Of a DNA stretch of 52,846 nucleotides, positions 45,678 through 46,086 are shown in pieces. The stretch is from Cardiobacteriaceae bacterium (GTDB lineage: Bacteria; Pseudomonadota; Gammaproteobacteria; Cardiobacteriales; Cardiobacteriaceae), in the NCBI GenBank assembly GCA_030529365.1, contig JAUMXB010000016.1, positions 1 to 52,846 on the forward strand. The letters are read 5' to 3'. The notes below the pieces were generated by a model, which worked only from the letters and a program-made list of their open reading frames with translations, was not told the origin of the DNA and ran no database searches. Position 1 is the first letter of the stretch, and each line of letters opens with the position of its first letter. The translations under genes were made by a program, and so were the position numbers.

Positions 45678-46009
45678 GAGCCGGCCAGACAATCGCTCGC
45701 GTTTGCGGGAGGAAAGTCCGGGCTCCACAGGGCGAAGTGCCGGGTAACGCCCGGGCGGCGCGAGCCGACGGAAAGTGCCACAGAAAATATACCGCCCCTT
45801 TGGGGGTAAGGGTGAAATGGTGCGGTAAGAGCGCACCGCGTTTTTGGTAACAGAAACGGCAGGGTAAACCCCACTCGGAGCAAGACCAAATAGGGAATCG
45901 ATGCGGCGGCCCGTCGTGATTCCGGGTAGGTCGCTACAGGTAGCCGGTAACGGCTATCGCAGATGAATGATTGTCCTCGACAGAACCCGGCTTATCGGCC
46001 GGCTCACCT
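45678..46009 (+). ncRNA. rnpB: RNase P RNA (type A)
   Basis: The catalytic RNA of RNase P, about 332 bases. The terminal helix P1 pairs GAGCCGGCC with GGCCGGCTC. Universal elements are present: GAGGAAAGTCCGGGCTCC, GTAACGCCCGGG, GGTAAGGGTGAAATGGTGCG, GGTAAACCCCACTCGGAGCA, and ATGAATGATTGTCC with ACAGAACCCGGCTTA near the 3' end. The 3' end CTCACCT corresponds to the CACCU end of E. coli M1 RNA. The tRNA-Arg gene begins at the very next base. Confidence 0.97.
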
Positions 46010-46086
46010 GACCCCGTAGCTCAATTGGATAGAGCGTTCCCCTCCTAAGGGAAAGGCTGGAGGTTCGATTCCTCTCGGGGTCGCCA
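46010..46086 (+). tRNA. tRNA-Arg (anticodon CCU)
   Basis: The 77-base gene has acceptor stem GACCCCG/CGGGGTC, encoded CCA, and anticodon loop CTCCTAA, giving CCU. It follows rnpB with no spacer, so RNase P cleavage at the tRNA 5' end would also generate the 3' end of the RNase P RNA. It has no promoter of its own. Confidence 0.95.

Follow-up and report, generated by a model that had tools for sequence, protein, structure and literature searches.

A tRNA-Arg(CCU) gene directly behind the RNase P RNA gene in Cardiobacteriaceae, with a possible shared processing site

In the window (the whole stretch of 52,846 nucleotides analysed, from a Cardiobacteriaceae bacterium), the gene for RNase P RNA, rnpB, is followed on the same strand and at zero spacing by a gene for tRNA-Arg(CCU). 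Gene order and predicted signals suggest that the two are probably read as one transcript, in which RNase P, by its cut at the 5' end of the tRNA, also forms the P RNA 3' end exactly or nearly. The tandem is conserved in the family and the zero spacing is not, as 11 of 12 genomes have the genes linked yet with tails of 4-16 nt between helix P1 of the P RNA and the tRNA.

The gene pair and its signals

A single rnpB copy is found in the genome by the Rfam model RF00010, that of the window. The match lies at 45677-46010 on the + strand and scores 340.2 bits, where the gathering score is 100; it covers the full length of the model (positions 1-367). The 5' end is most likely base 45678, with seven bases between it and the promoter-like site upstream. 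The features of the locus, in window coordinates, are as follows.

45643-45670, + strand: sigma-70-like promoter, TTGTCT-16 nt-TACAAT, with 9/12 consensus matches and a predicted start at about 45678
45678-46009, + strand: rnpB, encoding a class A RNase P RNA of 332 nt (Rfam RF00010; 3' end placed after that of annotated E. coli rnpB, ...CACCT)
45678-45686, + strand: helix P1, 5' strand, GAGCCGGCC, in 9-bp pairing with 45997-46005
45997-46005, + strand: helix P1, 3' strand, GGCCGGCUC (in DNA letters GGCCGGCTC), pairing with 45678-45686
46006-46009, + strand: ACCU tail, with the proposed RNase P cut after 46009 and U at -1 (from the sequence, with the E. coli 3' end as guide)
46010-46086, + strand: tRNA-Arg(CCU), CCA encoded, anticodon at 46044-46046 (ARAGORN; Rfam RF00005, 69.1 bits)
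46066-46083, + strand: weak terminator-like site, the tRNA 3' hairpin with a T tail (terminator scan)
46087-46097, + strand: T-rich tract TTTTTGTTTTT directly after CCA, possibly a weak terminator together with the tRNA 3' hairpin (from the sequence)
46081-46110, + strand: promoter-like site for the next gene, with 10/12 consensus matches, overlapping the tRNA 3' end
46140, + strand: ATG of the next open reading frame (ORF list)

The junction reads GGCCGGCTC-ACCT followed by GACCCCG, 46009 being the last base of rnpB and 46010 base 1 of the tRNA. The original prediction had placed both ends at these bases, and Rfam, ARAGORN and the end of E. coli rnpB bear it out. Annotated E. coli rnpB has 377 nt and ends in ...CACCT, after which GATTTACGTAAAAACCCGCTTCGGCGGGTTTTT constitutes an intrinsic terminator; if E. 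coli is a guide, the earlier 3'-end placement is right to the base, because that gene also ends in CACCT. The prediction had also spoken of an absence of spacer, terminator and second promoter, and for the window the sequence and the promoter and terminator scans agree. The only promoter-like sites on the + strand in 45500-46700 are those at 45643-45670 and 46081-46110, with none inside rnpB ahead of the tRNA, and no terminator was found in the window between rnpB and the tRNA. A terminator-free gap is weak evidence, because the gaps are short and the detector was positive in only 1/26 unlinked control loci; as a strong argument it was dropped. Most family members have a similar -10 element ahead of rnpB.

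Helix P1 joins the 5' and 3' ends of the RNA and has nine of nine pairs in the window. Its sequence varies across genera with the pairing kept, e.g. GAGCCGGCC/GGCCGGCTC vs GAGTTCGCC/GGCGAACTC. In a secondary-structure prediction of the fused RNA, which leaves the RNase P pseudoknots out of account, the P1 pairs have probabilities of 0.99-1.0 and all seven acceptor-stem pairs a probability of 1.0; both helices are thus predicted to form fully in one molecule. U at -1, a G1-C pair and an encoded CCA are features favourable to RNase P. The U at -1 can pair weakly with the discriminator G (predicted probability 0.53), and this could make the RNase P cut imprecise by one base. As a side observation made by eye, the acceptor stem of tRNA-Arg(CCU) in Dichelobacter and a related genus (loci L010, L011 and L012) is apparently mismatched, GCCCTTG vs CTCGGGC, and L011 and L012 have a C at -1 that might form a pair with the discriminator G.

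The tRNA gene encodes a cloverleaf with a CCU anticodon, typed by ARAGORN as tRNA-Arg(CCT). Is it the only one of its kind? The genome has 39 tRNA matches in 2.30 Mb, and among the 30 that were typed Arg(CCU) is represented by the window's gene only. Three of the nine untyped matches are Tyr, Glu and Leu from neighbouring loci, and the other six are 82-90 bases long, like tRNAs with a long variable arm. A tRNA-Arg probe search of the genome returned the window gene, Arg(CCG) and Arg(TCT) only. A second Arg(CCU) copy could still exist, since the genome is 96.6% complete.

Upstream of rnpB and divergent from it lies a gene that matches MamQ with a score under the cut-off and that presumably is LemA-like. 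Promoter-like sites for the two are crowded in the short spacer (window 45611-45670).

Conservation in the family and its exception

The family set consists of 12 Cardiobacteriaceae genomes, the window's included, with Cardiobacterium hominis NCTC10426, C. valvarum NCTC13294, Dichelobacter nodosus VPI 2340 and Rappaport israeli B08008 among them. All 12 have rnpB, and in 11 tRNA-Arg(CCU) lies directly 3' of it. The tail from P1 to the tRNA is 4 nt in the window, 13 nt in its only congener and 16, 14, 15, 5, 5, 4, 8, 6 and 6 nt in the other linked genomes (the L003 tail, like the rnpB end in L008, was taken by eye). Tails of at most 6 nt are thus found in 6/11 and tails of 13-16 nt in 4/11. Do relatives keep the zero spacing, as the original prediction proposed to check? 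They do not, not even the one congener, and exact zero spacing as a conserved trait is ruled out by this spread. With 39 tRNAs in 2.30 Mb, the probability that a tRNA on the same strand starts by chance no more than 16 nt from a given point is about 1.4e-4, whereas 11 of the 12 family genomes show this arrangement.

The pair outlives its surroundings, as the neighbour genes differ while the pair persists. The gene downstream of the tRNA is common only to the window and its one congener. In six relatives (L002-L005, L009 and L010) the LemA/MamQ-like gene is upstream, and in L007 it is farther off on that side; L008 has it downstream, and none was seen near rnpB in L006, L011 and L012. This comparison was made in six frames and carries noise from overlapping frames.

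The exception is family genome G008 (locus L008), where rnpB has no tRNA behind it and a short open frame comes next. A probe search found no Arg(CCU) gene in this genome (93% complete), the matches there being Arg(TCT). The same holds for the sister-family genome G365, in which the probe detected no Arg(CCU) and matched Arg(TCT) genes; its rnpB has no tRNA in the stretch examined behind it. The rnpB family tree is compatible with either a loss of the tRNA in G008 or its original absence, 16 of 25 inner branches being open; G008 and the sister family are on long branches.

G008 is also the site of a separate observation. The palindrome AAAGCGCTTT has 3149 copies in its roughly 1.6 Mb, compared with 3 for a reversed-pattern control; in the window's genome there are 72 copies compared with 6 for the control, and the window, with sites at 3906 and 31709, has 16 near-matches where 3.4 are expected. 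In three 20-kb stretches of G008 (L247, L248 and L249), 99/120 copies are inside long ORFs, and copies in this genome are often lengthened to CAAAGCGCTTTG. AAAGCGCTTT resembles the HIP1 kind of highly iterated palindrome, which cyanobacteria are known to have (excerpt of PMC4390886). Copies are present inside rnpB and close past its 3' end in L008, the sole tRNA-less family member, and because of this position the spread of the palindrome may perhaps be tied to the loss of the tandem.

Occurrence in other bacteria

In an even draw of the gammaproteobacteria, rnpB was found in 27/30 genomes. In the 26 loci examined besides the window's, the 1200 nt behind rnpB contain no tRNA, and only one of these unlinked controls (1/26) has a terminator after rnpB by the first of the two tests described below. 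A strict rnpB-then-tRNA pattern occurs in 3/369 genomes of the class, and these are all Cardiobacteriaceae, the only three of the family drawn.

A genome collection of 84,980 species was scanned for ACAGAAYYYGGCTTA followed by a D-arm motif within 15-45 nt. This yielded 101 stretches; ARAGORN finds a tRNA in 83, and in 79 the 5' rnpB motif is also present upstream. The scan gives a lower bound, because only exact motifs and short gaps are seen, and the gap range among the matches is fixed by the pattern itself. The 18 stretches without an ARAGORN tRNA include plain rnpB with a hairpin as well as sequences that are cut or contain N. Four tRNA loci are outside the 79, namely L041, L047 and L060 (short upstream sequence) and L064, which shows no rnpB motif and is probably spurious.

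The main groups among the 79 are Gemmatimonadota with Arg(CCG) (26 loci), Thermomicrobiota with His(GTG) (17), Chloroflexota with His(GTG) (9) and Cardiobacteriaceae with Arg(CCT) (7). Less frequent cases, many of them metagenome bins, carry tRNAs for Ala, Ser, Lys, Met, Thr, Trp, Ile, His or Arg and span Bacillota, Bacteroidota, Caldifarciminota, Cloacimonadota, Melainabacteria and others. As different phyla have different tRNAs, we infer that the tandem arose independently in separate phyla.

Is the tandem a trait of whole phyla or classes? Even draws argue otherwise. In Gemmatimonadota 34/35 genomes have rnpB, and the tandem is present in 2/30 loci examined (four rnpB places are outside the count), which rules out a phylum-wide trait. 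In Chloroflexia 31/35 genomes have an rnpB match, and the 3' end is readable in 27 of 30 loci, a count that excludes three fragmentary matches (L244-L246) and two further rnpB places. A tRNA-His starts within 130 nt of the end of the rnpB match in 15/27, and in 11 of these within 20 nt. The other 12/27 are without tRNA-His, so that a tandem in all Chloroflexia is also ruled out; these loci mostly have another 3' motif (GGGGGTA), often with a hairpin after it. In some Thermomicrobia-like genomes (L219, L221 and L233) the distance from the end of the rnpB match to tRNA-His is 93-101 nt.

Where might the transcripts end? By a first criterion, a terminator-like hairpin lies within 70 nt past the tRNA in 20/83 loci and in the gap in 0/83; Cardiobacterium hominis (L090) has a terminator past the tRNA by this criterion. 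By a strict criterion, an intrinsic terminator is found within 70 nt past the tRNA in 16/75 testable loci, whereas 100 dinucleotide shuffles gave 0.14 on average and never more than 1. Terminators past the tRNA are as predicted by a two-gene transcript that ends after the tRNA.

Formation of the RNA ends

How might such a transcript be processed? The rnpB promoter would drive a single transcription unit, rnpB plus tRNA-Arg(CCU), and the primary RNA would be P RNA fused to tRNA. The function of a tRNA requires an RNase P cut at its 5' end, and where the tRNA follows ACCU without a gap, the same cut would also make the P RNA 3' end. RNase P, most likely the mature holoenzyme acting in trans, would cut after ACCU; this would give the tRNA its mature 5' end and leave a P RNA that ends here in ACCU like E. 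coli M1. In longer-tailed relatives the cut would leave 5-16 nt, to be retained or trimmed by exonuclease. The tRNA would in this way stand in for the usual rnpB terminator or end-processing signal. A leader of only 4 nt before P1 may impede the contact between the RNase P protein and the leader; a short leader seems to be tolerated, however, since six of the 11 linked genomes have one of at most 6 nt. An exact end made by RNase P only cannot be general, because the tail is 4 vs 13 nt within one genus. Of the original idea that one cut releases both the tRNA and the exact P RNA end, the shared cut is favoured by the tandem in 11/12 genomes, by its recurrence and by the terminators after the tRNA, whereas the exact zero-spaced end is at odds with the range of tails.

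Tails of 13-16 nt, as in 4/11 linked genomes, would need trimming anyway, and E. coli M1 is made from a longer precursor by 3' processing. Might the genes be co-transcribed and the P RNA 3' end be made separately, as for M1, through an endonucleolytic cut (e.g. by RNase E) and exonuclease trimming, with RNase P clearing the remnant before the tRNA? This is unlikely, as 6/11 members have only 0-2 nt past a 4-nt tail, so that little or nothing is left to trim. The same variation bears on cleavage in cis, in which the P RNA would fold its own 3'-attached tRNA into the active site. The tether would be 4 nt from the end of P1, whereas artificial designs reportedly used other attachment points, and with tails of 4-16 nt a fixed tether geometry is not kept; cleavage in cis is thus very improbable, even if artificial self-cleaving conjugates of pre-tRNA and RNase P RNA exist (Frank, Harris and Pace 1994, as cited in an excerpt of PMC11143913). 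Incidental adjacency, with the tRNA served by its own promoter within rnpB, is hardly credible: rnpB has no promoter-like site on the + strand, promoter elements would have to fall within P RNA helices, and the tandem is kept in all but one of the family genomes.

Beyond the shared cut preferred here, could the tandem have been selected for feedback, with RNase P activity governing the supply of its own RNA? The original prediction held that it does, and the claim is not supported, since G008 keeps rnpB without a tRNA behind it. Recurrence in several lineages with different tRNAs speaks for it, but such convergence could arise simply because tRNAs lend themselves to forming 3' ends, and most sampled bacteria, like one member of the family, do without the tandem. 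3'-Extended P RNA is catalytically active, and a control loop would need the uncut precursor to be less active. Feedback is quite improbable. A wider idea, speculative and rather doubtful, is that in unrelated lineages RNase P took over the 3'-end formation of its own RNA by tRNA capture (Arg-CCU in Cardiobacteriaceae, His in Thermomicrobia, Arg-CCG in some Gemmatimonadota), and that this was selected because unprocessed precursor reports RNase P capacity.

Relation to known systems and significance

E. coli rnpB, the gene of M1 RNA, is of the same RNA class and has the same annotated CACCU end, four bases past P1. Unlike the window's gene, it has an intrinsic terminator and no tRNA behind it, and its 3' end is made by other RNases. 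In its working, the window tandem may be likened to the fMet-RPM1-Pro unit of yeast mitochondria, without being a member of that kind. RPM1 processing depends on RNase P, as Stribinskis et al. reportedly found in 1996. Both have a tRNA next to an RNase P RNA gene, and in the window the two lie on the same strand with no terminator found between them. In yeast RPM1 is transcribed with the adjacent tRNAs, and RNase P helps to release its own RNA; the window's unit would work likewise. The yeast genes fMet, RPM1 and Pro are transcribed from one promoter, as stated in an excerpt of PMC3797045. The yeast unit differs in that it belongs to an organelle with its own kind of polymerase and has tRNAs on both sides, whereas the window has a bacterial chromosome, its own promoter-like site and one 3' tRNA at zero spacing.

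Two further systems share part of the arrangement. In Staphylococcus aureus a gpsB-rnpB readthrough transcript has its rnpB 5' end matured by RNase J (excerpt of PMC3937233). As proposed here, RNase P RNA comes from a longer transcript; the S. aureus case differs in that it concerns the 5' end and RNase J and involves no tRNA. In mitochondrial tRNA punctuation, the end of an RNA is marked by the tRNA beside it in a longer transcript (excerpt of PMC4618339); in the window the RNA beside the tRNA is the catalytic component of the enzyme that cuts. The P finder paper surveys rnpB across bacteria, and an adjacent tRNA is not mentioned in the excerpt available (PMC7191817). Searches of an open-access library for rnpB and RNase P RNA brought up no report of a bacterial rnpB-tRNA tandem.

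Annotation of these lineages should treat the 3' end of rnpB and the leader of the tRNA as one unit. Named, cultured carriers and an unlinked relative for comparison make simple tests possible. The repeated appearance of the tandem with different tRNAs suggests a general way for RNA genes to dispense with a terminator, and an essential ribozyme finishing its own RNA would be a clean natural case of self-dependent biogenesis.
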